This document shows positions 39,675-62,244 of a stretch of 64,000 nt of DNA, piece after piece. The stretch spans positions 124,001 through 188,000 of the forward strand of contig NZ_LHQS01000002.1 in NCBI RefSeq assembly GCF_004102725.1, in the 5' to 3' direction. Both the position numbers and the translations under genes were made by a program. Under the pieces are notes generated by a model. It did no database searches. It was not told the DNA's origin and saw only the letters and a list, made by a program, of their open reading frames with translations. Source of the DNA: Methanoculleus taiwanensis. Its GTDB lineage: Archaea; Halobacteriota; Methanomicrobia; Methanomicrobiales; Methanoculleaceae. How positions within the stretch are numbered: position 1 is the stretch's first letter; each line of letters starts with the position of its first letter.

Positions 39675-40382
39675 TCAGATCCGCTCTTCCTCCGGGCATC
39701 CGCCTTTCAGCCGTCTGATCCTCCTGCCGAAGAACGCGGCGAGCATCACGGCGAGAATGCCGGTTATGAAGATACCGTCGAATATCCCTGCCCCGCCTAT
39801 AGAGAGCACCGTGCCGGCGGCGGCTGTCAGGGATGCCAGGACGACCGGGTTTGCGAGGTTGAGGAGATCCGCCCCTATGAGCGTCCCGACCGTCCCCCCG
39901 GCATAGGCGAGCGCCGGTGCCCCGCCGCATCCCCGCGACAGGAGGAGTCCTGCGACCGCACCTGCCAGGGGGGCGACGTAGACCGGCATGGTGATCCCGA
40001 CGCCGGGGACGGGCACGGCGAAGATGTAGGTGACGACGGATACCGCGACGATTGCGGCGAGCACCCGGGAGAAGGCGACCCGCTGCTTCGCGACCAGTTC
40101 GAGGGTTACGACGAGCGGGATGACGCATCCGCCGACGTTGACGGCTATCACGGCCTCTTCGAGCGGTATCAGCGGGACGTTGATGAACCCCCCGACCAGT
40201 GCCCCGGCGGTCATCAGAACGGCCTGGTGGAACCGGAGGCCGATCGCCTCGAAGGCCTCCTCGCTGATCAGCAGGAAACTGAAGATGAGCAGGAGCGGTA
40301 CGATGACGAAGAGTGCCAGGACGACCTGTTCGAGGCTTCCGGGAAACGGCACGATGGCCACGGCAGGTAGGTACTCGTGCAT
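39675..40382 (-). CDS. DUF1614 membrane protein
   Basis: The 235-residue protein has about seven hydrophobic segments, beginning after MHEYLPAVAIVPFPGSLEQV, with GLRFHQAVLMTAGALVGGFI, PVYVAPLAGAVAGLL and GAGIFDGIFITGILAVMLAA. It matches the DUF1614 family of archaeal and bacterial membrane proteins of unknown role. The ATG at 40382 follows GAGGCGG by six bases; a longer open frame to 40463 is polar and unsupported. It converges on asnB. Confidence 0.82.
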   Translation of the reverse strand: MHEYLPAVAIVPFPGSLEQVVLALFVIVPLLLIFSFLLISEEAFEAIGLRFHQAVLMTAGALVGGFINVPLIPLEEAVIAVNVGGCVIPLVVTLELVAKQRVAFSRVLAAIVAVSVVTYIFAVPVPGVGITMPVYVAPLAGAVAGLLLSRGCGGAPALAYAGGTVGTLIGADLLNLANPVVLASLTAAAGTVLSIGGAGIFDGIFITGILAVMLAAFFGRRIRRLKGGCPEEERI

Positions 40383-40801
40383 GGGTATCCGCCTCTCTTC
40401 ACGCTGCCTACTGTGAAATAGCTTGAGGCTTTCCGGGTGCTCCTGCTCTTCTCTACCGGACATGCCGAACCCTTCTCACTCGCGTCTTCGCTGAACCGTG
40501 CGGTGCATGCAAAGCGGTTCTCGCTTTTAGGGAGGATGCCCCGATCGGATCGAGAAGAGGGGGTGAAGCTGCCTACGACGGCATCCCGGAACAGTCCGAC
40601 ATTCACAGCACAAGGGTGTTTCCGGTTGCAAATCCTGCAGCCTCAACATGGAAATCGGCCAAAATCTCGTTTATGAGGTTTCTGCGCGACACTCGCGGAG
40701 CCGACTTCGTATCGGATGGCATCATCCTGCTATGCAGGTGGCGGGCTGAAGTATCCCTATATGGTTGCCGGGAAGCCGAACGAGGCCGTTCATTGGATTG
40801 C
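40383..40801. other. Interval without a supported gene
   Basis: About 420 bases between the DUF1614 gene and the histidine kinase end. Open frames here are short and unlike proteins. A CTCGTTTATGAG stretch near 40667-40678 is weakly palindromic. I see nothing that can be assigned. Confidence 0.5.
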
Positions 40802-41821
40802 TCATATATTGACGGATACCCCGGTTGCAGACCCGATTGGGATGATTCCGTGATTGCTTACGTTCCCGATGCCGAACCGAAAGTGCCCCTTCGGCACCAG
40901 CATCTCAAAGCGGGCTCCTTTTCCCGGTTCCCCGTTCTCCCGGATGGTAACTCCTGTAATGGAAAGGATCTCACGGCAGAGAAATAGTCCAAGTCCTGTA
41001 TTCTTTCCAAATCCCCGGATGAAAATGCGTTCCTTATCCTGAACAGGAACTCCGGTGCCGTCATCCTCAACGGAGAGGATCAGCCCGTGTTCCGTCTCTG
41101 TTGATGACACACCGATAGTGCTCATACCGGGGCCTCCATAGCGGAGGGCATTGTCGATCAGATTGTAAAATACCCGTTCAAAGATCGGATCGGCAAAGAT
41201 CTCGAGATCCTCTCTGTCGACAGTAATCCGGATACCGGCAACCGGGAGTGCAGCCTTCGCTCTTTCAATACTCGCGGCAACATTCTGCCATGCCTGAGCC
41301 TGGGCACCCATGTCCTGATAGTCGCGGGTAAAATTGATCTGATGCTCGATGGCATTGGCAATGATCTCTTGTTTCCCAATGAGGTCGGAGATGGCGTCCC
41401 TGTCCTTCTCTTCCCGCACAAGTTCGATGTAATACTTTAACGCCATTACCTGGTTTAAGATGTCGTGGCGTGTGATATTTGAGAGCAGGTTGAGTTTTGC
41501 ATTCACTGTCTTGAGAGCATCCTCGCTCCGCCTGAGATCGTGGGTCTTCTCCTTCATCTCGCGTTTTCGCACAAGCTGGTAATACCGTATCAGGAATGTG
41601 CTGTCAGCGATAATCAGGACCAGGAGAAACGTGGTAGTGGAAAAGGCGAAGTGAGTTTCAGGATCGAGAAGGACAGATCCTGCCCACTGTACTGCAAGCC
41701 ACCAGTACGGGAACATGATCGCTGCCAGAAGGAGGGTGGTAACGAGTGCTCCGGGCATCGGTTCCCCTGCCCATCTCCGCATCGCGGACATCCCGGCAGA
41801 ATTGCCACTCGTCCTTTCCAT
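40802..41821 (-). CDS. Membrane sensor histidine kinase
   Basis: The 339-residue protein has two N-terminal membrane segments (about residues 25-50 and 60-80), a short coiled linker (KREMKEKTHDLRRSEDALKT) and a kinase core. The H-box is NITRHDILNQVMALKYYIEL, the N-box FYNLIDNALRYGG, the G1 box VEDDGTGVP and the G2 box GFGKNTGLGLFLC. This H-box form (RHDILNQ) is common in methanogen kinases. No PAS domain or response regulator lies beside it; a divergent membrane-sensor-like gene starts 56 bases away. Signal unknown. A minus-strand CTATTTATC element suggests a leaderless transcript. Confidence 0.88.
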   Translation of the reverse strand: MERTSGNSAGMSAMRRWAGEPMPGALVTTLLLAAIMFPYWWLAVQWAGSVLLDPETHFAFSTTTFLLVLIIADSTFLIRYYQLVRKREMKEKTHDLRRSEDALKTVNAKLNLLSNITRHDILNQVMALKYYIELVREEKDRDAISDLIGKQEIIANAIEHQINFTRDYQDMGAQAQAWQNVAASIERAKAALPVAGIRITVDREDLEIFADPIFERVFYNLIDNALRYGGPGMSTIGVSSTETEHGLILSVEDDGTGVPVQDKERIFIRGFGKNTGLGLFLCREILSITGVTIRENGEPGKGARFEMLVPKGHFRFGIGNVSNHGIIPIGSATGVSVNI

Positions 41822-41876
41822 GATTTCAGCGTAGGAGAGGAGGTGATAAATAGCATGCGGGTCGAATGTCCATTCA

Positions 41877-42497
41877 ATGCACCAGGGAACCGCAGATCCC
41901 CCGGAATTCCGTGAGAGATCGAATCAGAAGCACGTGCCGAATTTCCTGTATCTTGCGCTGTTCTTTCTGCTGATCTGCATCAATGCCCTGGTAGCCAAGT
42001 TCGCGGTGTTCTCCTTTGAGATAAGTCCCGGTATATCCATGTTGTACATCGTGGTGGCTCCGATGGTAGTCTTCGGGCTGTGGTTCGGCATGTACGGGGC
42101 AATCGCAGCCTATGCGGGATGCTACATCGGGGCAGGATTGCTGAGCGGCGTACCGCCCGGCGTAAACCTCTACTGGTCTCTTGCAGATTTCTGGCAGGTT
42201 ATCATCCCGCTCGTGGCGTTCAGGGAGCTTGGGTGCGACCCGGCTCTCAGGAGCAGGAGAGATGTAGGAGTTCTCCTGATCTTCGGGTTCGTCCTCAACA
42301 ATCTGGCCGGCGCCACATGGGGTTCTGTCACTCTCGCCCTCGGCGGGGAGATCCTGTGGGCAGAGGTAGTGCAGGTGTGGTGCGCCTGGCTGGCAGGAAA
42401 TATCATTGTCTGCATAGTTCTCGTCCCTCTCATGCTCCACTTCTTCACGCCCTATCTCCGGGATCATGAGTTGTATGTCCGGGGTTACTGGCACTAG
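41877..42497 (+). CDS. MASE1-like membrane protein, possibly a detached sensor domain
   Basis: The 206-residue protein has about six membrane spans, from NFLYLALFFLLICINALVAK to IIVCIVLVPLMLHFFTPYL. Its ISMLYIVVAPMVVFGLWFG and GATWGSVTLALGG segments resemble MASE1-type sensor domains, but no kinase follows. The true start is unclear. An excellent GGAGGTGAT ribosome site at 41839-41847 precedes an ATG at 41855 in another frame that ends at 41914. This suggests either a leader peptide or a frameshift before the membrane part. It diverges from the histidine kinase, with which it may form a split sensor (inference). Confidence 0.65.
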   Translation: MHQGTADPPEFRERSNQKHVPNFLYLALFFLLICINALVAKFAVFSFEISPGISMLYIVVAPMVVFGLWFGMYGAIAAYAGCYIGAGLLSGVPPGVNLYWSLADFWQVIIPLVAFRELGCDPALRSRRDVGVLLIFGFVLNNLAGATWGSVTLALGGEILWAEVVQVWCAWLAGNIIVCIVLVPLMLHFFTPYLRDHELYVRGYWH

Positions 42498-42703
42498 AAT
42501 CGGGCATTACGGGTGGGTATACCCAAAATAGGGATCTTTGAAAGCGTATATGATGATGGTCGGTTCTATGGCAGGGTATGGCGTGTGAAACACTCCTTCC
42601 CTGCCTGGATCTGATGGCGCCTACGTGACCTCTGCATCTTGTATCGCCATGGAACGTCCGGTGCCGAGCCCGGCGATACCGGTGATCGTTCTTGATCGCT
42701 CAG

Positions 42704-42766
42704 TCACACAAAGATGGTATGCTCAAGCACGATCCGTACCCCGATCAGGATGAGGATGATCCCGAA
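42704..42766 (-). pseudogene. 3' end relic resembling manganese efflux protein MntP
   Basis: On the minus strand the frame ending at 42704 reads AFGIILILIGVRIVLEHTIF then V and stop. This resembles the last helix of MntP-family membrane proteins (pattern GxxLIxIGxxILxEH). Nothing upstream of it continues the family, because the sequence turns into a proC fragment on the other strand. The match is short, so the identity is tentative. Confidence 0.4.
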
Positions 42767-43181
42767 CGCCCCGGCGGCCGTCGGCGAGGGCTACAACCCG
42801 GTCGTGTTCTCCGCAGGGGTGACAGCTGAGCAGAAACAGCAGTTCGAACGGGTCTTCGGCGTGCTCGGCAGAATGCCGGAGGTCGCCGAGGAGAAACTCG
42901 AGGCCTACGCCATCCTGACCGCCATGGGGCCGACCTACTTCTGGTTCCAGTGGTACGAACTCCTCGACCTCGCCCGGTCGTTCGGGCTTTCCGGCGCCGA
43001 GGCGGAGGAAGGGCTCGCCGTCATGGTCGAGGGGGCGCTCCGGACGATGCAGAGCCCGGGTTTTGCGCCCGACGTCGTGACGGATTTCGTCCCGGTCAAA
43101 CCGATCGCGGCAGGCGAAGAGACTATCCGGGAGATCTACCGGACGAACCTGACCGGGCTCTACCGCAAGCTCACCGAGTGA
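42750..43181 (+). pseudogene. Truncated pyrroline-5-carboxylate reductase (proC) C-terminal relic
   Basis: From about 42750 the plus strand reads RMIPNAPAAVGEGYNPVVFS, then LEAYAILTAMGPTYFWFQWY and a ProC-like helical dimerisation domain to the stop at 43181. The Rossmann NADPH domain (about the first 110-120 residues of ProC) is missing. The nearest ATG, at 42714, lies within the overlapping MntP-like relic. A protein from it could fold as the dimer domain but could not bind NADPH. It marks the left edge of the arsenic island. Confidence 0.75.
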
Positions 43182-43212
43182 TCCCTACTTCAACTCTTTT
43201 TGAAACCAGAAC

Positions 43213-43256
43213 CTTTATGTGGTGGTGTTGCTCACACTAATTCAAACAAATTTGAA
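43213..43256 (+). promoter_or_regulatory. Promoter and inverted-repeat operator of the arsenic island
   Basis: TTTATGT at about 43213-43219 can serve as TATA. The perfect inverted repeat TTCAAA-caaa-TTTGAA (43241-43256) falls where transcription should begin, 25-30 bases downstream. A nearly identical TTCAAACAAAATTGTAA stands at 51370-51386 before arsF. Placement over the start site fits an ArsR/SmtB-type repressor; no such gene is in the window. Confidence 0.55.
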
Positions 43257-43291
43257 ACTTTTAGATCCCCATCGTGACGGAGTGTACCCCT

Positions 43292-43429
43292 ATGGCAGAC
43301 GGCACCAGCAGAAACCAAAAAGAGGGCATCGCCGAAAAGATCAAAAAACTCTTCACGCCGGAGAACGACTGCGGCTGCTGCTGCAACGTGAAGATCGTGC
43401 CGAAGGAGACGGACAAGAAGAAGGAGTGA
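43292..43429 (+). CDS. Small Cys-rich protein (45 residues)
   Basis: The 45-residue ORF begins MADGTSRNQKEGIAEKIKKL and carries a dense cysteine block, NDCGCCCNVKIVP, then a lysine-rich tail. It is the first gene of the arsenic island, 36 bases after the operator, and three of its four cysteines are consecutive. Such a cluster could bind As(III) or another thiophilic metal, and it recalls Cys-rich tails on three other island proteins. No family is recognised. A tiny 24-codon ORF (43443-43517, also starting MAD) follows, but I do not call it a gene. Confidence 0.62.
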   Translation: MADGTSRNQKEGIAEKIKKLFTPENDCGCCCNVKIVPKETDKKKE

Positions 43430-43523
43430 CGGGAAGCAGACGATGGCGGACGAACCGGAGCCCCGGAACCCCGGACCGAAGACAGACCGACTGAAGAGAA
43501 GCGGGATCGGTGAGTGAACTCTC

Positions 43524-44429
43524 ATGGATACCATCGCAAACCTTCTCACCGCCGGACAGTTCTTCGTCGTCATCGCCGGGGAGCTGATCCTGCTCTTCAT
43601 CGGGATCACCTTCCTCGTCGGGCTCCTCCACGCCTACGTGCCGGAGGAGCGAATCCGGGGCGTGCTCACCGGAAAACGGCCGGGCACCGGCAACGTGCTC
43701 GGGGCGGGGTTCGGTGCCCTCACCCCGTTCTGCTCCTGCTCGACCATCCCGATCCTCCTCGGCCTCTTAGATGCCGGCGTTCCGTTCGGAGTCTGCATGT
43801 CGTTCCTGCTCGCATCCCCGCTCTTAAACCCGGTGATCCTCACGCTCCTCGCAGCACTGGTGGGCATCGTCCCGACCGCCATCTACGCAGGCATCACCTT
43901 TGTGGCGGCGGTCGGGATCGGGGCGCTCCTCGGGCGACTCGGGTACGAGCGGTACGTCAGGGATGTCACGGTCGCCGGGCGGCCGGAACCGTGCGGCTGC
44001 AACGCCGGCCACGGCACACGGATCCGCGGGGCGTTCACCTTCGCCGTGGCTCTGTTCCGGCAGGTGCTCCCCTACCTGCTGCTCGGCGCCGGGATCGGGG
44101 CGTTCATCTACGGGTTCGTCCCCGAAGACCTGATCGTCGCGGTCGCGGGGCCCGCTAATCCCCTCGCCATCCCGGTCGCGGCGGTCATCGGCGTACCGAT
44201 GTACATCCGGGCCGAGACGATCATCCCGATCAGCGCCGTCCTCCTCGAGAAGGGGATGGGCATCGGCGCCGTGATGGCGCTGATCATCGGCGGTGCGGGC
44301 GCGAGTATCCCGGAGGTGACGCTGCTCGCCGCGATCTTCGAGCGGCGCCTGCTCGCAGCCTTCGTGGCGGTCATCCTCGGGGTCGCCGTATTCGCCGGCG
44401 TGGCGTTCCAGGTTCTTGCCGTCATCTGA
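43524..44429 (+). CDS. DUF318 permease (ArsP/SO_0444-like)
   Basis: The 301-residue membrane protein has about eight spans and belongs to the DUF318 permease family, which includes methylarsenite exporter ArsP and metal exporters. The signature lies in LTPFCSCSTIPILLGLLDAG (Cys-Ser-Cys near residues 73-75), and the second half has GVPMYIRAETIIPISAVLLE. A central cytoplasmic loop contains CGCNAGHG, which may bind metal. It is followed by a second, different DUF318 permease 57 bases downstream. Export of an organoarsenical or thiol-reactive metal is inferred from family and island context. Confidence 0.87.
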   Translation: MDTIANLLTAGQFFVVIAGELILLFIGITFLVGLLHAYVPEERIRGVLTGKRPGTGNVLGAGFGALTPFCSCSTIPILLGLLDAGVPFGVCMSFLLASPLLNPVILTLLAALVGIVPTAIYAGITFVAAVGIGALLGRLGYERYVRDVTVAGRPEPCGCNAGHGTRIRGAFTFAVALFRQVLPYLLLGAGIGAFIYGFVPEDLIVAVAGPANPLAIPVAAVIGVPMYIRAETIIPISAVLLEKGMGIGAVMALIIGGAGASIPEVTLLAAIFERRLLAAFVAVILGVAVFAGVAFQVLAVI

Positions 44430-44486
44430 ATTGCAGACCAAGCACACGATAAGAGAACGCCATACCGTAACAAAAAGGAAAAGACC

Positions 44487-45566
44487 ATGATCGACCTACT
44501 CATCGGCGCTCTTGCGTCGGGGCTTGCGGCGGTGCTCGACTACCTCTCGGCGCACGTCCTCACGTGCCTCGTGCCGGCGTTCTTCATCGCCGGCGCCATC
44601 GCGGCCTTCGTCAAGAAAGACGCCATACTGAAGTACTTCAGTCCGGACACCCCGAAACCGGTCTCCTACGGGATCGCCTCGGTCTCCGGGACGATCCTCG
44701 CGGTCTGCAGCTGCACCATCCTCCCGATCTACGCGGGCATCCTCAAGAAGGGGAGCGGCATCGGCCCGGCGACGACCTTCCTCTTCGCAGGGCCCGCCAT
44801 CAACATCCTCGCGATCATCTACACCGCCCGGGTGCTCGGGTTCGATCTCGGCGTAGCCAGGGCGGTCTCTGCGATCGTTCTCGCGATCGTCATCGGGCTT
44901 GCCATGGCGCTGATCTTCCGGTCGACGGATGTCGAGACTCTCAAACAGAGGGCAATGGCACCGAGCGTCGCCGGGGCGTGCGAGGAGGAGAAACCGCGCT
45001 GGGTTACGCCCGCGTTCTTCGCCCTCCTTGTCGGCGTGCTGGTCTTCGGGGCGTCGCAGCTCGACTGGGCGATCCGGCTCGGCATCGTCTACATCCTCAC
45101 GCTCGCTATCGCCGTCCTCCTTATCTACTATTTCGACAGGGACGAGGTGACCGACTGGGGGCTTGAGACCTGGGATCTCACGAAGAAGATCTTCCCGATC
45201 CTTATCGGGGGGACGTTCATCGTCGGGATCATCGCCTTTTTCCTGCCGCCCGAGACCTTCCAGCCGTTCTTCGGCAACAACTCCATTGCCGCCTGTGCTC
45301 TGGCCTCGATCGTCGGGATGATCCTCTACATGCCGACGCTGCTCGAGGTCCCGATCATCGGCACGACCTTCGGCTACTCGTCCGGGCTCATGGCCGCAGG
45401 CCCGGCGCTCGCCCTTCTGCTGGCGGGCCCGACGGTCAGCCTCCCCTCCGTCCTCGTCATCTACCGGATCGTCGGGGCGGCGAAGACCGCAGCCTACGTG
45501 GCGCTGGTGGTCATCTTCGCGACTCTTGCCGGGTTTGTGTACGGGAACGGTATGCTGCTGATCTAG
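44487..45566 (+). CDS. Second DUF318 permease (ArsP-like)
   Basis: The 359-residue protein has about ten membrane spans. The family motif reads VSGTILAVCSCTILPIYAGI (Cys-Ser-Cys near residue 74), followed by GPAINILAIIYTARVLG, and the second half has PTLLEVPIIGTTFGYSSGLM and AGPTVSLPSVLVIYRIVG. This is the subgroup commonly next to small thioredoxin-like disulfide proteins, as here. The paralog just upstream is only distantly similar, so the pair may serve different substrates or form a heteromer. Substrate unproven. Confidence 0.87.
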   Translation: MIDLLIGALASGLAAVLDYLSAHVLTCLVPAFFIAGAIAAFVKKDAILKYFSPDTPKPVSYGIASVSGTILAVCSCTILPIYAGILKKGSGIGPATTFLFAGPAINILAIIYTARVLGFDLGVARAVSAIVLAIVIGLAMALIFRSTDVETLKQRAMAPSVAGACEEEKPRWVTPAFFALLVGVLVFGASQLDWAIRLGIVYILTLAIAVLLIYYFDRDEVTDWGLETWDLTKKIFPILIGGTFIVGIIAFFLPPETFQPFFGNNSIAACALASIVGMILYMPTLLEVPIIGTTFGYSSGLMAAGPALALLLAGPTVSLPSVLVIYRIVGAAKTAAYVALVVIFATLAGFVYGNGMLLI

Positions 45567-45575
45567 GAGATACCT

Positions 45576-45851
45576 ATGAAAACGACGAAGAAGCGGGAGA
45601 AACCTTGCTGCGCCGCCGAGGCGCTGCGCCGGATCCGCCGGATCGAGGTTGGGGAGGTCGTCGTTGGGCTCGCGATGCTCGACGATATCCTGGCCGACGT
45701 CATCGATCTCGGTCTTTCCGGCGAAACCGCTATCGGCGATGCGCTGATCAAACAGGTGAAGATCTACAACTACATCCCGAAGGAGGCCGAACCGCTCTAC
45801 CGAACGGCGCTCCTCCGGGAGTACCGAAACGAGGTGAAGAAAGAATGGTAA
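45576..45851 (+). CDS. Conserved small protein next to permease and thioredoxin
   Basis: The 91-residue protein has an N-terminal basic CC-containing segment (KKREKPCCAAEALRR) and a helical body (EVGEVVVGLAMLDDILADVI, then KIYNYIPKEAEPLYRTALLR). I recognise no domain with known function; genes of this kind appear to accompany DUF318 permeases and thioredoxin-like proteins. AGGAGAT lies before the ATG, and it overlaps the next gene by ATGG (45848-45851). The CC pair hints at a metal or arsenic delivery role for the permease upstream. Confidence 0.72.
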   Translation: MKTTKKREKPCCAAEALRRIRRIEVGEVVVGLAMLDDILADVIDLGLSGETAIGDALIKQVKIYNYIPKEAEPLYRTALLREYRNEVKKEW

Positions 45852-46081
45852 AAGTTGAAGTACTCGGAACCGGCTGCGCCAAGTGCAAGCGGCTCGCAAA
45901 GAACGTAGAGACGGCGATCAAGGATCTCGGTATCGATGCCGAACTCGTCAAAGTCGACGACATCACCGAGATCATGGAGCGTGGCGTGATGCTGACGCCG
46001 GCGCTCGCCGTCGACGGCGACCTCAAGGTCTCCGGCCGGGTGGCGGACGTCAAAGAAATAAAAGAGATCCTGCAGGGGTGA
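45848..46081 (+). CDS. Thioredoxin-like small disulfide protein
   Basis: The 77-residue protein has the redox-active-disulfide-protein-2 fold: MVKVEVLGTGCAKCKRLAKN with a CAKC pair (Cys11, Cys14) and the cis-Pro region VMLTPALAVDGDLKVSG. It probably reduces disulfides or hands over electrons or metal to the nearby permease or ArsC. It overlaps both neighbours by four bases, and a close paralog with the same CAKC motif lies 400 bases downstream, each followed by a DGC protein. Confidence 0.87.
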   Translation, partial: VKVEVLGTGCAKCKRLAKNVETAIKDLGIDAELVKVDDITEIMERGVMLTPALAVDGDLKVSGRVADVKEIKEILQG

Positions 46082-46482
46082 CGGACGTGACCCGCGAACG
46101 GCGCGTCATCGTCGCCTGCTGCGGTGGGTCGTATCCCGGACAACTCGCCTGCCACGGCGCGGTGCGGCTCGCCCGTGAAGGCTACGGCGATCTTGTCGGC
46201 GTCGCTGCCGTCGCCGCCGGCCATAGACCCGGGATAGAACGGGTGCGGGCCGCAGACGATATCGTCGTCATCGACGGCTGCGAGACCGGCTGCGCCCGTG
46301 CCGTCCTCGACCAGCTCGGGATCGAGCCCGACCAGTACATCGTCGTCGCCGATCTCCCCCTTCGGTCGACCGGCTACCTCGGTATCGACCCGCGGGACAT
46401 CGACGCGGTCGTCTCTGCCGGATGGGTGCGGGATAGTGCGGTATGCAATCCCCGGAGGAGGAGAAACCATGGTGCTGATTGA
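46078..46482 (+). CDS. DGC-domain zinc-binding protein (copy 1)
   Basis: The 134-residue protein belongs to the DGC-domain family of putative zinc-binding proteins: VIVACCGGSYPGQLACHGAV at the N-terminus and VVIDGCETGCARAVLDQLGI (DGC..C) in the middle. I start at GTG 46078, which overlaps the thioredoxin stop as GTGA; GTG 46087 is the alternative. Its end overlaps the next thioredoxin gene by 14 bases. The Arg-rich last residues (CNPRRRRNHGAD) appear to be run-on past the domain. Biochemical function of the family is unknown to me. Confidence 0.8.
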   Translation: MTDVTRERRVIVACCGGSYPGQLACHGAVRLAREGYGDLVGVAAVAAGHRPGIERVRAADDIVVIDGCETGCARAVLDQLGIEPDQYIVVADLPLRSTGYLGIDPRDIDAVVSAGWVRDSAVCNPRRRRNHGAD

Positions 46483-46711
46483 AGTATTCGGGACCGGTTG
46501 CGCCAAGTGCAAGCGGATGATCAAGAACGTCGAGATCGCGGTCGGGGACCTCGGGATCGATGCGGATGTACGGAAGATCGAGAACCTCGATGCCATGATC
46601 GACCGGGGCGTCATGCTGACGCCGGCGCTCTACGTCGACGGCGAGCCCAAAGTCGTCGGGCACGTCCCCTGCGTCGAGGATATCAAACAAATACTGCTTG
46701 GAGAGAAGTAA
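46469..46711 (+). CDS. Thioredoxin-like small disulfide protein (second copy)
   Basis: The 80-residue protein closely parallels the thioredoxin-like protein at 45848: MVLIEVFGTGCAKCKRMIKN with CAKC, and VMLTPALYVDGEPKVVGH. The ATG at 46469 follows GGAGGAGGAG and sits inside the end of the preceding DGC gene. A third Cys appears near residue 68 (VPCVED), absent from copy 1. Thioredoxin and DGC genes alternate here, a duplicated two-gene module. Confidence 0.87.
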   Translation: MVLIEVFGTGCAKCKRMIKNVEIAVGDLGIDADVRKIENLDAMIDRGVMLTPALYVDGEPKVVGHVPCVEDIKQILLGEK

Positions 46712-46712
46712 C

Positions 46713-47183
46713 ATGACGAAACAGAATCTACCCCGGTGCGCCTGCGGAGGCGGCGAAGAGCCGGAAGGCGGAACGAAACGGATCATCTTCGCCTGCGCCG
46801 GAGTTGCGAATGTCGGCCAGCTCAGCAATCTCGCTGCGATCCAGCTGACACAGGAAGGATACGGCAGTGCAGCATGCGTCGCGCTCCTCGCCGCCGCTCC
46901 CGAAGGCTTAACGAAGAGTATCGGAGAGGCGGACGAGGTTCTCGTCATCGACGGCTGTCCCGTCCGGTGCGCTGAGAAGATCGCCGTCGCAAAGGGCATC
47001 ACCCCCGACCAGCACCTCGTCGTCACCGTTCTCGGGATCGCGAAGAAGAGTTCGCTGGAGTTTTCCGACGCCGACCTCGAGACCGTTGTATCGGCGGTCT
47101 GGGAGGGGAAGGGAAGAGGCGAGGAAGAGAAGAAATGCCAGCCCTCCGGCGGGTGCGGGTGCGGCGGCGGGGGATGCTGCTAG
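46713..47183 (+). CDS. DGC-domain zinc-binding protein with Cys-rich ends (copy 2)
   Basis: The 156-residue protein has the DGC core (IIFACAGVANVGQLSNLAAI, then VLVIDGCPVRCAEKIAVAKG) flanked by two added cysteine segments: PRCACGGGEE at the start and GGCGCGGGGCC at the very end. These ends could bind thiophilic metals or As(III). The ATG at 46713 begins one base after the thioredoxin stop. The ACR3 exporter follows ten bases later, so it may deliver its ligand to that pump (inference). Confidence 0.83.
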   Translation: MTKQNLPRCACGGGEEPEGGTKRIIFACAGVANVGQLSNLAAIQLTQEGYGSAACVALLAAAPEGLTKSIGEADEVLVIDGCPVRCAEKIAVAKGITPDQHLVVTVLGIAKKSSLEFSDADLETVVSAVWEGKGRGEEEKKCQPSGGCGCGGGGCC

Positions 47184-47192
47184 GGTGAGAGC

Positions 47193-48284
47193 ATGGCGGC
47201 ACCACAGCCCGAGCGGCGCCTCTCCACCTTCGAGAAGTACCTCACGCTCTGGGTGGCACTCTGCATCATCGCCGGGATCCTCATCGGCAGCACCTTTCCC
47301 GGGGTTGCGGTCGCGCTCGATGCCTTATCCGTCTACCAGATATCGATACCGATAGCCATCGCGCTCTTCTTCATGATCTACCCGATCATGGTGAAGATCG
47401 ACTTTGCCGAGGTGCTCCGGGCCGCAAAGACGCCAAAGCCCGTCGCCCTGACGCTCCTGGTGAACTGGGCGATCAAGCCCTTCACGATGTACCTCATCGC
47501 CACGTTCTTCCTCGGCTACCTCTTCGTCGACTTCATCCCGGGCACCGAGATCCTCCCAAGCGGCGTCGAGATCGAACTCTGGCGGAGTTACGTCGCCGGG
47601 TGCATCCTGCTCGGCATCGCCCCCTGCACGGCGATGGTGCTGATGTGGAGTTACCTCGCCCGGGGCAACGACGGCCTGACGCTCGTGATGGTCGCGATCA
47701 ACTCGCTCACCATGCTCCTCCTCTACGCCCCGCTCGGCGGGTTCCTCCTCGGCGTCGCCGCGATACCGATCCCCTGGGAGACGATCCTCCTCTCGGTCGC
47801 GGTCTACGTCGGGCTCCCGCTCGCCGCCGGCTACCTGACAAGGAAGTGGATTATCGCCAAAAAGGGCATGGTCTGGTTCGAGACGACGTTCCTGCACTAC
47901 CTGACCCCGGTGAGCATCGCCGCCCTCCTCGGGACGCTCGTGCTCCTCTTCACCTTCAAGGGCGACGTCATCGTCGCAAACCCGCTCACCATTCTCTGGA
48001 TCGCGGTCCCGCTCTTTATCCAGACGGTCTTCATCTTCACGCTCGGCTACTTCATCCTCGCCCGGCGGCTGAAACTCGCCTACCGGGACGCCGCGCCCGC
48101 CGGGATGATAGGAGCCTCGAACCACTTCGAGGTCGCCATCGCCACCGCGACGGTCCTCTTCGGCCTCGGGTCGGGGGCGGCGCTGGCGACGGTGGTCGGG
48201 GTACTGATCGAGGTGCCGGTGATGCTGATGCTCGTGCGGATCTGCCTGCGGACGCAAGGAATGTTTGGAGATGAGGCAGCATGA
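47193..48284 (+). CDS. acr3: Arsenite efflux transporter ACR3
   Basis: The 363-residue protein is an ACR3-type As(III)/H+ antiporter with ten membrane spans. Diagnostic blocks are [40 protein letters not shown] with the catalytic Cys of GIAPCTAMV, and [20 protein letters not shown]. It follows a DGC protein after ten bases with a GGGTGA ribosome site, and its stop overlaps the Usp gene by ATGA. This is the most secure indicator that the island handles arsenic. Confidence 0.96.
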
Positions 48285-49159
48285 CGAATAGCAAACATAT
48301 TGGAACCGTGCTCGTGCCGCTCGAGATGGCGGGGAGCAGCGACGCGATCCTCTCGGCGGTGGAGGAGATCGTGCGTGCCGGTGCCGACGAGATCCAGCTC
48401 CTCCACGTGGCGAACGTGCGGGATACCCTCGCGGCTCCGGAGATCCTCGACCACGACCGGGAGGTGCTCGAGGCGTGGCGGGAACGATTGATCGCCTGCG
48501 GCGCTCCGTCCGTGACCGTGGAGGTGGTCAGCGGCATGCCCTCGACCGAGATCATCGAGCGGTCGGAACGGGACGACTACGCGCTCATCGTTCTCGGATC
48601 GCACGGACGGAACCTGGTATCCCGGGTGATCCTCGGCAGCACCACGGAGGACGTCCTCCGGCATGTCGACGATCCCGTGCTCGTCGTTCGGCTGCGGATC
48701 GTCGAGACCGGCGATGAGGCGACCTGCCGGCTCGCGGCCGACCGGCTCGTTAAGCGCATCCTCTACGCGACGGACTTCTCGGCGTATGCCGAGCGGTGCA
48801 TCCCCTGCCTCTCCTGGATAGCCGGGGCGCACCCCGAGGAGCTGACCGTCGTCCACGTTCAGGATCTCCGGCACCTCTCGTACGCCTCGAAAGAGCAGAT
48901 GGCGGCGTTCAACCGGCGCGACGAAGAGCGGCTGGCGGCGCTGAAGCGGGAGTTCGAGGCAGCGGGGTTCGCGAACGTCGACACCGTCCTCCGGACGGGG
49001 AACGCGATAGATGAGGTGCTCGCTCTCGCAGAGGAGCGCGGCGTCACGCTCATCGTGCTGGGAGCGAAGGGGCGGCACGGGACTGTCGAGCAGATCTTCG
49101 GCGGCGTGGCCGAGGCGGTCGTGCACCGGTCGGCGGGGCACGTACTGGTGGTACGATAA
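48281..49159 (+). CDS. Tandem universal stress protein
   Basis: The 292-residue protein contains two Usp domains (about 1-140 and 150-292). Each has the nucleotide-binding G-loop pattern: [20 protein letters not shown] in the first and [20 protein letters not shown] in the second, each followed by a VLVV..R strand. It overlaps ACR3 by four bases, so it is cotranscribed with arsenite efflux; its role there is unknown. Single-domain Usp proteins elsewhere in the window (53332) are different. Confidence 0.9.
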
Positions 49160-49175
49160 TTCAGGAGAGATAGAT

Positions 49176-49583
49176 ATGACAGAACAGGAACTCGTCGTCG
49201 AATGGCGGCATATCGGAGAAGACATCGAGAAGACCTGCGAACGGTGCGGGGAGACCGGACGGGCGGTGATGGACGTCATCGAAGAGATCCGGCCGATCCT
49301 CGAGGAGGAGGGCATCACGGTCCGGGTTGTCGAGACGGTTCTTCCAAACGAGGCGATAGCGCAGTCGAACAGCATCCTCTTCAACGGTGTGCCGCTCGAG
49401 GATCTGATCGAGGGGATGGAAGTAACCAGCACGCCCTGCGCCTCCTGCGCCTGCATCACCGGGCAGGACGATGCGGCGTGCCGGGCGGTCGAGTATGACG
49501 GCGAGCGTTACGAGTCGATCCCGCCGGAGCTGATCGCCCGGGCGGCGCTCAAAGCGCTCGGCATAGAGACAACAGCGGAGTGA
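49176..49583 (+). CDS. DUF2703 protein
   Basis: The 135-residue product matches the DUF2703 family, often found in arsenic and mercury loci. It opens ELVVEWRHIGEDIEKTCERC and contains GETGRAVMD, NSILFNGVPLEDLIEG and the Cys block STPCASCACITGQDDAACRA. The pattern CxxC near the start plus CASCAC in the middle suggests thiol chemistry or metal binding. I start at the ATG at 49176, since AGGAGAGA lies before it. Four bases of its stop overlap a possible GTG of the next gene. Confidence 0.83.
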   Translation: MTEQELVVEWRHIGEDIEKTCERCGETGRAVMDVIEEIRPILEEEGITVRVVETVLPNEAIAQSNSILFNGVPLEDLIEGMEVTSTPCASCACITGQDDAACRAVEYDGERYESIPPELIARAALKALGIETTAE

Positions 49584-49588
49584 TTCAA

Positions 49589-50359
49589 ATGACAGCAATC
49601 GAAGACATTCAGAAGATGGGAACCGCGATGAAGGAGCTCCTCGGGCTCTCCGGGTCGCCTGTCGGCGTGCGGATCGTGAAACGGAACGATGAGATCGCAG
49701 AGGCCGAGCCCGCCGGGGGGCACCGGTTCTGCCAGGCGCTGATGCGGGGGAGGCGTGGCGACCACGTCGTCGTGACCGCCGAGACGATCGCGTGCCCGGC
49801 GGCCGCCCGTGCCTTCGGGTTCAAGCCGCTCCCTGAGGCGCTGAAGTCGGGGAAGGGTCTGGTCGGTTTCGGGATCACCGCTGAAGAATCGGTCGGGCAG
49901 CAGATGTTCGCCGGGATGACTACCTGCAAGCCGGGCGAGATCGTCCAGCTCGACGTCTTCCCGCTGGATGCCGCCGGGAGCGAGCCTGATATCGTGGTCG
50001 TGGAGGACGAGGTCGAGAAACTGATGTGGATCGTCCTCGCCTACATGCACGCCCGCGGGGGAGAACGAGTCTCCGGCTCAACCGCCGTCCTGCAGGCGAC
50101 CTGCGTGGACGCGACGATCATCCCCTATCTCGAGGACCGGCTCAACTACGGGTTCGGCTGTTACGGCTGCCGGGACGCGACCGATATGGCGGGGGGGGAG
50201 GCGATCCTCGGGTTCCCGGCGCACTACCTCCCCGGGATCGTCCGGCACCTCGAGTACCTGAACAGAAAGGCGCTCCCGCACTCCCGGGGCAAACACGCCC
50301 TTGCCGCGCTCACGAAACAGCGAGGAGGCGGCGACCCGGGATCCTGCTCGTCGCTCTGA
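49589..50359 (+). CDS. DUF169 protein
   Basis: The 256-residue protein matches DUF169: SPVGVRIVKRNDEIAEAEPA, then HRFCQALMRGRRGDHVV, ACPAAARAFGF, and FGCYGCRDATDM near the end. The conserved cysteines could bind a metal or cluster; some relatives occur with corrinoid or methyl-transfer genes. I prefer the ATG at 49589, five bases after GGAGTGAT, over the GTG at 49580. Its Ser/Cys end (GSCSSL) precedes arsC by 13 bases. Function unknown. Confidence 0.83.
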   Translation: MTAIEDIQKMGTAMKELLGLSGSPVGVRIVKRNDEIAEAEPAGGHRFCQALMRGRRGDHVVVTAETIACPAAARAFGFKPLPEALKSGKGLVGFGITAEESVGQQMFAGMTTCKPGEIVQLDVFPLDAAGSEPDIVVVEDEVEKLMWIVLAYMHARGGERVSGSTAVLQATCVDATIIPYLEDRLNYGFGCYGCRDATDMAGGEAILGFPAHYLPGIVRHLEYLNRKALPHSRGKHALAALTKQRGGGDPGSCSSL

Positions 50360-50372
50360 AGCGAGGTGTGTT

Positions 50373-50780
50373 ATGAAAAAGAGAGTTCTCTTCGTCTGCA
50401 CCCATAATGCCGCCCGCTCGCAGATGGCGGAAGGGTATCTGAACGCCCGCTACGGCGACCGCTACCAGGCCTTCTCGGCCGGCACCGCTCCCGGAACCCT
50501 GAACCCCTACGCCGTCCGGGCGATGGCGGAGATCGGGATCGACATCTCCGGCCACCGCGCAAAAGACCTCGGTGAGTTCGACGAGCAGGAGATGGACGTT
50601 CTCGTCGCCGTCTGCGAGGGAGGGCTCTGCCCCTTCTTCCCGTGGGCGAAGGAGGAGATCCACAAGGAGTTCCCCGACCCTTCGACCCTCACCGGCACCG
50701 ACGAGGAGATCATGGCCGGCGTCCGGCGGATCCGCGACGCGATCACCGCCTGGATCGACGGGACGTTTGGAGAAGACTGA
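50373..50780 (+). CDS. arsC: Arsenate reductase (LMW-phosphatase/thioredoxin type)
   Basis: The 135-residue ArsC reduces arsenate to arsenite for export by ACR3. The phosphatase loop Cys9-X5-Arg15 is in VLFVCTHNAARSQMAEGYL, and the relay cysteines lie in AVCEGGLCPFFPWAKEE (near 83 and 88). This type is recycled by thioredoxin, and two thioredoxin-like proteins are encoded in the same operon. The catalytic loop has THNAARS where many relatives have VHNAGRS. It is followed after two bases by the third DGC gene. Confidence 0.92.
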   Translation: MKKRVLFVCTHNAARSQMAEGYLNARYGDRYQAFSAGTAPGTLNPYAVRAMAEIGIDISGHRAKDLGEFDEQEMDVLVAVCEGGLCPFFPWAKEEIHKEFPDPSTLTGTDEEIMAGVRRIRDAITAWIDGTFGED

Positions 50781-50782
50781 CT

Positions 50783-51130
50783 ATGGCGGTCACCGTCATC
50801 ACCTGCTCCGGGATCTCGAACACCGGGAAGCTGACCACCCAGGCGGGAACGATGCTCCTCCACTGCTCCTGCGGGGCGGTCGAGGCCTGCATTGCGGCCA
50901 CCCGGCCGACGGCGTCGCTCGAGAATGCCGTGCGGCACGCAGACCGCATCCTGGTGCTGGACGGCTGCACCGACTGCTGTGGGAAGAAGAAGGTGGCGGC
51001 GCTCGGCATCGAGCCGCACCTGCACCTGGTTGCTACCGACTGCGGGGTCGTGAAGAACGGGATGGCCGAGCCCCGGTTCGACGAGATCGAGCGGCTCGCC
51101 GCCGCCGTGCTGGAGGCGATCCGACGGTGA
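50783..51130 (+). CDS. DGC-domain zinc-binding protein (copy 3)
   Basis: The 115-residue protein is a third DGC member: VTVITCSGISNTGKLTTQAG, an inserted LHCSCGAVEAC, and LVLDGCTDCCGKKKVAALGI. It differs from copies 1 and 2 by the added Cys pair and the CC of DGCTDCC. It starts two bases after arsC, probably by coupling since no ribosome site is seen, and overlaps the zinc-ribbon ORF by GTGA. Confidence 0.82.
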   Translation: MAVTVITCSGISNTGKLTTQAGTMLLHCSCGAVEACIAATRPTASLENAVRHADRILVLDGCTDCCGKKKVAALGIEPHLHLVATDCGVVKNGMAEPRFDEIERLAAAVLEAIRR

Positions 51131-51273
51131 ACTGCGACCTCTGCGGGGCGCCCGGCACCCGGTTTCTCCGGGTGAACCACGAGAGCCGCGGGATCGTGCT
51201 CCTCTGCGACGCCTGCAGGGAGCGGGAGAAGGGCCGCCTCCGCCCGCTACCGAAACGGGGTGGGTGCTGCTAA
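51127..51273 (+). CDS. Zinc-ribbon peptide (48 residues)
   Basis: The 48-residue ORF starts with GTG inside the DGC stop (GTGA) and encodes a single zinc ribbon, NCDLCGAPGTRF and LLCDACREREKG, with a CC end (KRGGCC). Four cysteines in two CxxC pairs plus the final pair suggest metal binding. It is the last gene of the first arsenic unit, followed within 12 bases by a T7 run. Confidence 0.65.
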   Translation: MNCDLCGAPGTRFLRVNHESRGIVLLCDACREREKGRLRPLPKRGGCC

Positions 51274-51284
51274 CGGGAGAAACC

Positions 51285-51291
51285 TTTTTTT
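51285..51291 (+). terminator. T-run terminator of first arsenic transcription unit
   Basis: Seven consecutive T lie 11 bases after the zinc-ribbon stop, fitting an archaeal U-rich terminator and separating the first unit from arsF-arsG. Confidence 0.45.
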
Positions 51292-51335
51292 CAGCGACAG
51301 GTGCATCGTCGGCCGGATGCCACCGGGGAGAAAGC

Positions 51336-51386
51336 ATATATCTCGGTATGCACAATAGGCCGATACCACTTCAAACAAAATTGTAA
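51336..51386 (+). promoter_or_regulatory. Promoter and operator of arsF-arsG
   Basis: ATATAT at 51336-51341, preceded by GAGAAAGC, can be TATA. TTCAAACAAAATTGTAA (51370-51386) sits about 30 bases further down, over the expected start. It shares the first ten bases, TTCAAACAAA, with the operator at 43241 and has a degraded second arm (TTG-AA). Confidence 0.5.
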
Positions 51387-51414
51387 TAGTGACCTGCATA
51401 AGGAGTGTCCTCTG

Positions 51415-51945
51415 ATGAAACCAGAAAGATCAAGCCCTACCGCATCCCGGCGCACGCCCGGGCGGCGCACCGGCAGCATATCCGGCCGAAAGATCCTGCC
51501 GTTTGTCGTGCTGGCGGTGTTCCTCGCCTGCACGGCGCTCTTTGCCGGATGCATCGCGGCACCCGAAGGGCAGGCCGCCGCCACAATCAACGGCACCGTC
51601 ACCAGAGTCGAAGTCATCCATTTCACCACGCCGAACCAGTGTTACTCCTGCGTGGTGCTCGGCGACTATGCCGAAGAGACTGTGACGACGCACTTCGCCG
51701 ACGAACTCGCCTCCGGGAAGATGGTCTTCGACCACATCAGTATCGCCGACCCGGCGCAGCAGGAGATCGTCGAGCGCTACGGCGCGACCGGATCGTCGCT
51801 CTGGATCGGCGTCTACGACGACCAGGGTGGGTTCTACCCGGAGGAGGACGTCCGGGTCTGGTACAAACTGAACGACAAACCCGGGTTTACGACCTACCTG
51901 AAGACCGTCCTTGAGATGCGCCTCCGGGGTGACCTTACGCAATGA
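51415..51945 (+). CDS. arsF: ArsF-like redox lipoprotein
   Basis: The 176-residue protein has a basic N-terminus, one hydrophobic segment (about residues 25-43, FVVLAVFLACTALFAGC) ending in a lipobox-like FAGC, and an outside thioredoxin-like domain with the pair CYSC in VEVIHFTTPNQCYSCVVLGD. It matches the ArsF family that accompanies ArsG exporters in arsenical loci. It starts 29 bases after the operator and overlaps arsG by ATGA. Confidence 0.82.
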   Translation: MKPERSSPTASRRTPGRRTGSISGRKILPFVVLAVFLACTALFAGCIAAPEGQAAATINGTVTRVEVIHFTTPNQCYSCVVLGDYAEETVTTHFADELASGKMVFDHISIADPAQQEIVERYGATGSSLWIGVYDDQGGFYPEEDVRVWYKLNDKPGFTTYLKTVLEMRLRGDLTQ

Positions 51946-52658
51946 GCCTGATGGGGTTCATGGAGACGATGGGGACGAGCAGCGTTCCCCTCGTCGCCGC
52001 GTTCTTCATCGGGCTGATGATGGCGCTCTCCCCCTGCCCGCTGGCGACGAACATCGCCGCGATCGGGTACCTCTCCCGCCGGATCGGCAGCCCCGGCCAG
52101 ACCCTCATCGCCGGGTCGCTCTACGGCGCAGGGAGGATGGTCGTCTACGTCGGGCTTGCGGCACTGATCGTCATGCTCGGCCTCTCGGTTCAGGCGATCT
52201 CACTCTTCCTGCAGACCTGGGGCGAGGTGCTGGTCGGCCCGCTGCTGATCGGGGTCGGCATCGTGATGCTCGATCTCGTCCCGCTCAGTTTCGGATTCGG
52301 CGGCAGCAGCAGGCTCGCGGCGTTCAAGGAGCGGCTCGCCGATCAGGGCGTGGCGGGAAGCTTTCTCCTCGGCGTGCTCTTTGCGCTGACTTTCTGCCCG
52401 TTCTCGGCGGTGCTCTTCTTCGCCATGCTCGTCCCGCTGGCCCTCCGGACCGGCGACCCATTCGGCGTCCCGGCGGTCTTTGCCGTCGCCACTGCTCTGC
52501 CGGTGATCGCGTTCTCGCTGATCATGGTGACCGGGGTTGCGAAGGTGGGAAGCGCGATGAAGGCGGCGGAGACGTTCGAGTTCTGGATGCGGCGGATCGT
52601 CGGCGTGCTCTTCATCGGGATCGGGCTCTCCTTCCTCGCGGCAATGCTGCTCGGGTGA
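51942..52658 (+). CDS. arsG: ArsG-family (CcdA-like) exporter
   Basis: The 238-residue membrane protein has about six spans of the LysE/DsbD-CcdA type and two proline-cysteine pairs inside the membrane: MMALSPCPLATNIAAIGY and ALTFCPFSAVLFFAMLVPLA. Families of this kind next to ArsF are described as exporters of (aromatic) arsenicals; a disulfide-shuttling role with ArsF is equally possible from the fold. It overlaps arsF by four bases. Confidence 0.82.
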   Translation: MSLMGFMETMGTSSVPLVAAFFIGLMMALSPCPLATNIAAIGYLSRRIGSPGQTLIAGSLYGAGRMVVYVGLAALIVMLGLSVQAISLFLQTWGEVLVGPLLIGVGIVMLDLVPLSFGFGGSSRLAAFKERLADQGVAGSFLLGVLFALTFCPFSAVLFFAMLVPLALRTGDPFGVPAVFAVATALPVIAFSLIMVTGVAKVGSAMKAAETFEFWMRRIVGVLFIGIGLSFLAAMLLG

Positions 52659-52752
52659 CGTTCGCCGCTCCTGCCACCCCCTCCTCTTTCCGTATCCCGG
52701 AGGATTCGTGATGCTCGACCTCGCGTCTCGCTCGCGGTCGGGACGGCCGGGA

Positions 52753-53156
52753 CTATTTCCACTCCCACATTCTGTCGTGCACTGTTCCGTCGGGATCGAT
52801 CTCGACCTCAAAGGCCAGCGGCAGATCGTTGAGCCGGCTCATAACCGGCGATGTAGTCCGCAGGTGCCGGACTCCCCGCACGCTCCATCCGGATCCGTCT
52901 TTGGGCACGCGGATCCCGGAATCGTGCAGTACGGCCACCCCACCGCTCCCGGTCATCAGAGTCCGTCGCCTTTCAGGAACATGCCGCCCGGGAGCCTTTC
53001 CTTCGACCGGAACGTTGCGGTAACGGTGATCTCGGTACCAAGAACCTTCCCCTTCGACTCGATGAACCTCTCGATCCTCGGTTCCCCTCCACGGTGGCGG
53101 ACAAGGCGCTGCTCGACCACCCTGCCCGTCATTTCTCCAACCAGTTCTCCGATCAT
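52753..53156 (-). pseudogene. Frameshifted conserved hypothetical gene
   Basis: Two minus-strand frames join at 52956 in the overlapping TGATG. The first (66 residues, start 53156 after GGTGAT) reads MIGELVGEMTGRVVEQRLVR to GGMFLKGDGL. The second (67 residues) reads MTGSGGVAVLHDSGIRVPKD to TVHDRMWEWK. Together they look like one known-size protein of about 135-150 residues with a GK..G and IWEWK-like end. The break looks like a one-base frameshift, although stop-start coupling of two halves cannot be excluded. Function unknown. Confidence 0.6.
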
Positions 53157-53331
53157 ATGTATCACCGGATGCACTGATCGCGCCGATGTATATAATGGTA
53201 GACCCCCCTGCTCGTTCGGTGCACGCACGGTGTCGGTGGCGCTGTTCCCATCCGCAGGGTACGGGGCGATCGCTTCTAGCATCCCCGCCGGGAACCGGCA
53301 GATCGAAAACAGATGAGGAATAAAATGGTAT

Positions 53332-53760
53332 CTACCGGACGATCATCACCGGACAATCGGCGGTCTGGGCGATCTTCTGACTGACGCTGCCCATCACCGC
53401 TCCGCGGATGGCACCAAGCCCCCGGCTCCCGATGACGATCAGGTCGGCGTTCTCTTTTTTGGCAACTGCGAGGATCTCCGTGACCGGTTCGCCGAGCGCA
53501 ACCTTCAGCGTAGAGGACACCCCCGCCGCCTCGAGCCGGTCGAGTGTCCCCCGCACCACCTGCCGGGCATCCTCCTCAAGGAGAGCATGGACGTCGAAGT
53601 TCGCCCGGACAAGCCGCGACTGCGACGGCGGGGACGTTGCGACATGCACCACCACGACCGTCACCTGATGGGAGAGCTCCCCCGCAAGCGTGACCGCGGC
53701 CTCCGTTGCCCGGCGGGCGTTCTCCGAACCGTCCGTAGCGAGCAGAATCGTACGAAACAT
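53332..53760 (-). CDS. Universal stress protein (single domain)
   Basis: The 142-residue Usp begins MFRTILLATDGSENARRATE and ends with the ATP-binding loop VIGSRGLGAIRGAVMGSVSQ followed by CPVMIVR. I start at the ATG at 53760; the open frame upstream is not Usp-like. It diverges from the SulP transporter 213 bases away. Single-gene unit; binding of ATP is likely from the G-2x-G-9x-G(S) loop, function in stress response only general. Confidence 0.92.
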   Translation of the reverse strand: MFRTILLATDGSENARRATEAAVTLAGELSHQVTVVVVHVATSPPSQSRLVRANFDVHALLEEDARQVVRGTLDRLEAAGVSSTLKVALGEPVTEILAVAKKENADLIVIGSRGLGAIRGAVMGSVSQKIAQTADCPVMIVR

Positions 53761-53973
53761 AGCAAACTCCAACGAAAAACGGCGCCTTCGGCTGTATGCG
53801 TGCCGTATTCCCAATGGTTTACACCCGCACCATATAGACATACCGATGGTGGTGATACAGCGGCCGGTCAGATAACGGGAAACCTTCAAGTTCTGGTGCG
53901 GAAAAATGAATATTCACTTGCGGCACCTGCCGGACCCTTTTCCCCTCTGACTACTTTGAACCGAGGATCTTTT

Positions 53974-55428
53974 GTGAACTTAAAGATGCGGTTTGATCTG
54001 AGCGCGCTGAAGAAAACGTGGCTCTCCAACGTCCGGGGCGATACCCTCGCCGGGATGACCGTAGCCCTTGCTCTGATCCCCGAGGCGATTGCCTTCTCCA
54101 TCATCGCCGGTGTCGACCCCATGGTGGGGCTCTATGCCTCGTTCTGCATCGCCGTCGTGATCGCCTTCGCCGGTGGAAGGCCGGGGATGATCTCCGCAGC
54201 CACCGGGTCGATGGCGCTCGTCATGATCGTCCTGGTACGCGACCATGGACTCGAATACCTCCTGGCGGCGACGATCCTCACCGGCATCATCCAGTTCGTC
54301 CTCGGGCAGCTGAACGTCGGGCGGTTCATATCGTTCGTCCCCTACTCGGTCGTCCTCGGGTTCGTCAACTCCCTGGCCATCCTGATCTTCCTCGCCCAGG
54401 TGCCGTTCCTCATCGGCGCCTCGCTTGCGATGTACGTGATGGTCGCGGCAACGCTCGCCATCATCTACCTCCTTCCCCGGGTGACGAAAGCCGTCCCGTC
54501 GTCGCTCGTTGCCATTCTGGTGATGACAGCCGCCGCCATAGCCTTCGGCATAGAGGTCCTTACCGTCGGGGATCTCGGGGCGATCACCCGGGCGCTCCCG
54601 CTCTTCCATCTGCCCGCGGTGCCGCTGACCGCAGAGACGCTCCTGATCATTCTCCCTTACTCCCTGACGCTCGTTGTCGTCGGCCTGCTGGAGTCGCTTC
54701 TGACGGCCTCGATCGTCGACGAGATGACCGACACCGGGAGCAATAAGGATCGCGAGGTTCGGGGGCAGGGAATTGCAAACTGCGTCGCGGGTTTCTTTGG
54801 TGGGATGGCGGGCTGTGCGATGATTGGCCAGTCGGTCATCAATGTCAGGTCAGGAGGGACCGGCAGACTCTCGACACTCGTCGCCGGTCTTTTTCTGATC
54901 TTCCTCATCATCGCCCTCGGCGATATTGTCGCGCAGATACCGATGGCCGCCCTGGTCGGCGTCATGATTGTGGTTGCGATCGGAACCTTCGAGTGGCAGT
55001 CGATTCGTGATCTCCCAAAGATCCCGGCAGGGGACGCGGCCGTGATGCTCCTAACGATCGCAATTGTGGTTTATACCCACGATCTCGCAAAAGGGGTCCT
55101 CGCCGGCGTTGTTCTCGCTGCCCTGATCTTCGGATGGAAGATCTCGGTCATCTCGGCGCCGGGCACGCTCCGGGATGACGGTGTCAAGGTCTACGCAGTA
55201 AAAGGCCAGCTCTTCTTCGGTACGATGACCTCTTTTATCGGTCTCTTCAATTATGCCGGCGACCCGGAACGGGTGCGGATCGATTTTTCTCATTCCCACA
55301 TCTGGGATCACTCGGCCGTGGAGGCGATAGCCCGCGTCGTACATAAATACCAACAGCAGGGTAAATCGGTATATGTCATCGGCCTGAACCCGGAGAGCCA
55401 GGAGACGCTCGATAAGGGATTTTCCTGA
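53974..55428 (+). CDS. SulP family anion transporter with STAS domain
   Basis: The 484-residue protein has ten to twelve spans of the SulP/SLC26 type: [49 protein letters not shown] and [20 protein letters not shown]. It ends in a short STAS domain (about residues 395-484, [16 protein letters not shown] and [17 protein letters not shown]). Substrate could be sulfate, bicarbonate or molybdate; the sequence does not tell. I chose GTG 53974, seven bases after GAGG, rather than ATG 53986. A broken second copy of the gene lies just downstream. Confidence 0.9.
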
Positions 55429-55570
55429 GATGATCGGTGAAATGGCTCCTTTTGCCATCTCTTCTCTCGCATAGCGAGATGGCCGATCATGCTGCTGATC
55501 CTTGAGGCTCTTCTCCTCTGCCCGGCGGTTCGGGTTACTGGCGGTCTCCTTAAGTTCCTTCAGAATCCCC

Positions 55571-55830
55571 TTCATCACCGACGAGATGACCGGGTTCGGG
55601 AGCGATAAAGGCCGAAAATAAGAGGAATGGGTGTCGGAAAAGGTCTTGCCGGTCTCATCCAGATCTTCCTCGTCATCGTGCTCGACGATCTCGTTGTGCA
55701 GATGCGATGGCCACTCTGGTCCGCGTCATGATCGTGGTCGCTGTCGGAACTGTCGAGTGGTAGCCGTTCAGTGACCTCCCGAAATCCCGGTGGAGGATGC
55801 GGTGCGCATGCTCATTATCTCCACCGCCGC
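55571..55830 (+). pseudogene. Decayed second copy of the SulP gene
   Basis: Two stretches match the intact SulP gene upstream. Bases 55571-55613 (containing GACGAGATGACCG, GGGAGCGATAAAGG) correspond to about 54710-54755. Bases 55647-55800 (GCCGGTCTCATCCAGATCTT to GTCGAGTGG and beyond) correspond to about 54890-55040. The part between is deleted, and stops and base changes break the frame. It is a partial duplicate in decay. Confidence 0.7.
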
Positions 55831-56060
55831 CCGGAAGAGGCATGATCCGCATCGGTGCGTTCGCTGCCAGGGGCAGCTCCCGGGTATTCAGGACTCTATC
55901 TGCCTCGGAAGCTTCCGGATAGGCCTGAACGGCACCGTGGAGCAGTATGCCTGATCTATTGCGGCAGGCGCGTCTCGCCGCCTTTAGGGCGAAATACGGA
56001 CACAAAAGTGATTATTATATTATAAAATGCCATAAAACTACTCTTTGATAATGCGAAAGG

Positions 56061-62181: not shown

Positions 62182-62244
62182 ACAGTGTGCATCATAATTT
62201 TGATCTCGCTTTAATTAATGGTATCCTTTCTATCCTGCCGCCCC

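Follow-up and report, generated by a model that had tools for sequence, protein, structure and literature searches.

A probable internal deletion scar joins MntP-type and ProC-like gene relics within an arsenic-resistance cluster of Methanoculleus taiwanensis

Introduction

Three described systems lie closest to the locus reported here: end joining in archaea via microhomologies of 4–20 bp, a pathway that according to PMC8708640 has been observed in two archaea, Haloferax volcanii and Sulfolobus islandicus; the ArsR-regulated ars modules of archaea and bacteria; and the MntP manganese efflux family (PF02659). The locus lies in a window of 64,000 nucleotides from Methanoculleus taiwanensis (G000:C2:124001-188000; assembly of 2.75 Mb in 12 contigs), and a literature search on it found no paper. 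A first-pass annotation of the window, made from the letters alone, had described two opposed gene relics sharing bases and had taken them for the edge of an island. Comparison with related genomes, principally the genus mate Methanoculleus sp. FWC-SCC1 (G001; 3.2 Mb), indicates that the joint is a scar inside an arsenic-resistance gene cluster, ordinary in kind. The features are collected in Table 1.

Table 1 Features of the joint, its surroundings and the operator-like palindromes (window positions unless a locus is named)
Feature	Position	Strand	Basis or remark
Inserted block	40352-56260		blastn synteny; contains both relics, the joint and the arsenic module
Histidine-kinase ORF (minus, to 41821) and weak MASE1-like membrane ORF (plus, from 41877)	40802-42497		between left edge of block and joint
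3' relic of MntP-type gene	42686-42758	-	stop codon 42704-42706; 84% to 3' end of intact G001:C3 mntP
Chimaeric predicted open frame, 155 aa	42714-43181	+	ORF list; antisense mntP at its start, then proC-like frame
Joint, GGATG common to both parental sequences	42754-42758		DNA matches to G001 mntP and proC-like genes
3' relic of ProC-like gene	42754-43181	+	comparison with G001; about codon 118 to stop, without internal stop or frameshift
Operator-like palindrome pair, TTTCA-N8-TGAAA	43188-43205 and 43240-43257		one mismatch each, 52 bp apart; before small-ORF/arsP operon
Arsenic/metal module	43274-48284	+	small Cys-rich ORF, two ArsP-type permeases, small thioredoxin-like ORFs, ACR3
ArsP-type permeases	43524-44429, 44487-45566	+	ArsP_1, PF03773
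ACR3 arsenite transporter	47193-48284	+	TIGR00832, 390 bits
Palindromes in relatives	L006 7134, 8010, 8062; L026 12728, 12780, 13658, 15991; L112 5203, 5256, 6126		at promoters of ars modules; some paired, 52-53 bp apart

Results

Two gene relics meet at the joint

Both opposed 3' relics named in the first-pass annotation, of proC on the plus strand and of an MntP-like gene on the minus strand, are confirmed by DNA matches to intact G001 genes. On the plus strand, 42754-43457 is 92% identical to G001:C2:215575-216278, after which the similarity continues into the following arsenic module; the gene is intact in G001 (259 aa, the first gene of that stretch) and in G004. Against TIGR00112 (cut-off 196.75) the intact G001 copy scores 105.7 bits and the relic 38.1, both below the ProC threshold, so that the gene on the plus strand is a paralogue resembling ProC; a separate full-length, canonical-looking proC on C3 of the M. 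taiwanensis assembly (G000) is 28% identical to it. The intact G001 copy carries PF03807 and a weak PF14748; in the relic the nucleotide-binding half is absent and the dimerisation part alone remains (PF14748 at E 9e-4, which is below the cut-off). At E 1e-30 or better the ProC-like gene is found in 23 of 232 genomes of the class, at 25 places, often beside ars genes. An island-free relative having the same proC fragment, which the first-pass annotation would have taken against its own reading, was not found among 40 genomes of the family: three carry the gene, which is whole in the two besides G000.

On the minus strand, 42686-42758 matches G001:C3:314898-314970 with 84% DNA identity (E 4.9e-15 in the 3.2-Mb genome), at the 3' end of an intact mntP (C3:314383-314949, 189 aa, PF02659 E 4e-43). 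The relic retains only about 18 C-terminal MntP codons; scanned against Pfam by itself, the 22-aa tail gives no match, as expected at that length. Lack of MntP homology in a profile search of the tail had been proposed as contrary evidence; the scan of the short tail indeed gave no MntP hit, but at the DNA level the relic strongly matches an intact mntP. When the C-termini of 53 MntP proteins were ranked, that of G038 (same family, other genus) came first and that of G001 third, with L090 between them. The tail belongs with the MntP type of G001 and G038, an assignment that would be weak by protein alone and is carried by the DNA match.

Apart from the relic, G000 has an MntP on C1 only, of 46% identity. 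Searches for the missing 5' parts in G000 were made at the protein level with every candidate scored, and detected neither the 5' half of the ProC-like gene nor the 5' part of the relic's mntP type elsewhere in that genome. In the whole-genome DNA searches the best 40 candidates per genome were scored, so that weak DNA matches may escape; one such search omits the mntP tail of the window that another recovered. A rearrangement inside the genome, whether by inversion or by reciprocal translocation, was considered and rejected, as the protein searches found no reciprocal piece in G000.

Five shared bases at the joint

The first-pass annotation had placed the overlap of the two relics at about 42750-42766, reading IPNAP in one direction and GAFGII in the other. 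The overlap exists, but the bases common to both homologies are the five of the joint, and those to the right of 42763 give the minus-strand GAF as antisense proC, not as MntP. The match to the G004 proC-like gene is exact over 42754-42769, and that gene reads RMIPNAP, the same as the window. To reach about 42763, the overlap would require the GII of the window to have stood in the lost MntP as well, and its length, taken from relatives 84-92% identical, may differ from the real one. When all breakpoint pairs between the G001 mntP and proC-like genes were computed, at least 5 bp were shared in 0.95% of them and at least 10 bp in 0.003%, which supports the proposal of a microhomology joint between two broken genes. 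Since the sequence left of 42686 matches nothing compared (none of 42498-42690 has a match in these loci), a second breakpoint may lie at the left end of the mntP relic, from 42686 leftwards.

The edges of the block lie elsewhere

The further proposal, that the joint was left when an island joined the chromosome, does not hold. Synteny with G001:C17 and G004:C1 extends to 40351 and resumes at about 56260; the block between is absent at the syntenic site in both (21274 to 20725 and 228842 to 228318, respectively), where the relatives carry about 0.5 kb. It is flanked by genes for a DUF1614 protein and an ABC transporter. With boundaries at about 40351 and 56261, a seam between island and chromosome at 42754 is ruled out, the joint lying about 2.4 kb inside. 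No direct repeat of 12-30 bp is common to 40301-40820 and 55401-56300, no tRNA gene lies near the edges (the sole one of the window is at 62094-62182), and 40352-40804 has no match in the loci compared.

The segment 47170-49190, with ACR3 and a universal-stress-protein ORF, is absent at the G001:C2 counterpart, where matches stop at 220401 and restart at 220425, and G004 has at the place of ACR3 an ACR3 of only 35% identity. Further right, 53332-55428 encodes a universal-stress protein and a SulP permease, the latter with 81% identity to a permease that G095 has near its proC-like/arsR pair. The small ORFs of the module were named by eye.

Probable former linkage of mntP, arsR and the proC-like gene

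In G001:C2, G095 and G156, arsR lies directly upstream of the proC-like gene and divergent to it; in G130 it is likewise upstream, in tandem and not divergent. A link between arsR and mntP is seen in two genomes. Ahead of the intact mntP of G001:C3, and on its strand, stand residues 1-56 of an arsR (59-68% identical); the DNA upstream of these resembles the arsR-proC intergenic region (80% identity; L007 6116-6266 vs L006 7185-7035). This remnant represents a second copy of arsR in G001, which has diverged and lies on another contig than the module. G038 likewise has the remains of an arsR, frameshifted and matching in two frames (E 9e-9), ahead of an mntP of 66% identity. At 51 further mntP loci searched as a control, no arsR match reached an E-value below 0.21. 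The order mntP-arsR-proC was found intact in no genome, and no mntP was seen near the 24 proC-like copies outside the window (loci with about 1.5 kb of flanks, fewer at contig ends) or within 14 kb around the G095 copy. In G004 this spot is rearranged too: the arsR-proC region occurs there twice, once with a broken arsR, and a carbamoyltransferase-like ORF separates the copies (L026 13600-16400).

A conserved palindrome before the operon

The palindrome pair before the small-ORF/arsP operon recurs at identical spacing in G001 and G004 and, 53 bp apart, in G095, and further copies stand in the arsR-proC intergenic regions of these three genomes. The whole window contains three such palindromes, two of them at 43188-43257, and 100,817 bp of other DNA searched contained none. 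From its position and conservation, our guess is that the palindrome is an ArsR operator. The ArsR of G000 nearest to the lost one (70% identical; the next, 34%) is encoded on C1 beside arsC, and no operator-like site within 3 mismatches was detected beside that arsR-arsC pair. We infer that the operon lost its cognate repressor and kept a promoter region. In G095 a transposase-like ORF (L112 3103-4041) lies between operator-like sites at 2976 and 4102, upstream of arsP.

Discussion

Because mntP is preceded by arsR relics in G001 and G038, and arsR and the proC-like gene are divergent in G001, G095 and G156, the order expected in the ancestor is mntP and arsR in one direction and the proC-like gene in the other, an arrangement that a single deletion would convert into that of the window, and both relics probably derive from one such divergent module. 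As they appear to be opposite ends of a single divergent unit, an internal deletion is the simplest account of the scar, and we consider it likely that the joint records the loss of about 1.4 kb within the arsenic-resistance module. The ancestor would have carried mntP and arsR, a divergent promoter-operator region, and then the proC-like gene, the small ORF, the two arsP genes and the remainder of the operon, this linkage being deduced from the relatives. A break would have been resealed at the 5-bp (possibly up to 10-bp) common sequence, presumably by end joining. Judged from the G001 lengths, the deletion would have taken about 515 bp of mntP, about 480 bp (478) of arsR and the arsR-proC promoter region, about 350 bp (351) of proC and a short gap. 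The proC-like gene would thereby have lost its first 117 codons and, with arsR and the divergent promoters removed, the remaining operon may have been freed from ArsR repression.

It is also conceivable, though rather unlikely, that unlinked fragments were joined end to end, the broken left end of the module having been ligated, while it was captured or moved, to an mntP fragment from elsewhere; this comes close to the reading of the first-pass annotation. The module indeed has a different location in each of G000, G001 and G004, the G001 mntP lies, among the matches listed, between segments matching two different G000 contigs, and the sequence left of the mntP relic has no counterpart in the loci compared. 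Such joining, however, requires two coincidences: that the fragment came from the very mntP type linked to arsR in two other genomes, and that it landed in the orientation predicted by a divergent arsR-mntP unit. The boundaries between block and chromosome, moreover, lie elsewhere.

A functional role for the chimaeric frame, as a new gene selected for a free dimerisation domain, appears very improbable. The frame is open across the joint, its proC part contains neither stop nor frameshift, and the pairwise dN/dS to G001 is 0.20; this pairwise value, however, mostly reflects the time before the break, and the nucleotide-binding half is missing. Changes on the branch leading to the window number 3 synonymous and 5 non-synonymous in the relic; the two arsP genes have 51 and 18, a difference of p 0.047 in one of several tests, while the G001 branch of the proC-like gene, with 9 and 4, is not different (p 0.20). 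These counts give weak evidence of relaxed constraint in what would be a recent proC relic. An assembly chimaera is scarcely credible: the assembly is 99.98% complete, the contig is 1.2 Mb long with the joint far from its ends, and the missing halves of the two genes occur nowhere in the assembly.

Returning to the deletion within the module, we speculate that in methanogens of the Methanomicrobiales type an ArsR regulon once coupled an MntP-type pump, the ProC-like reductase and the ArsP and ACR3 transporters via the TTTCA-N8-TGAAA operator. The deletion would then have taken the regulator and left the operator pair with the operon, so that efflux might now be constitutive or under a foreign ArsR; this wider scheme is possible and is put forward tentatively. 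What was apparently the seam of an island is re-read as an internal deletion, and an MntP-type pump and a ProC-like protein would be tied to an ArsR regulon in archaea whose candidate operator is conserved and directly testable.

The locus is worth comparing with the known systems. As in microhomology-mediated (alternative) end joining in archaea, a short common sequence stands at the joint and the intervening DNA is lost (PMC8708640); here, however, the event is read from relatives only, and replication slippage would leave the same scar. The module resembles other ArsR-regulated archaeal and bacterial ars modules in its ACR3 and ArsP_1 proteins and in the divergent ArsR of its relatives, but its cognate ArsR is gone from the locus, and in the nearest relatives a ProC-like gene heads the operon. 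Finally, the intact G001 homologue is a clear member of the MntP manganese efflux family, and the type that it shares with G038 is linked to arsR, unlike the 51 other mntP loci compared.
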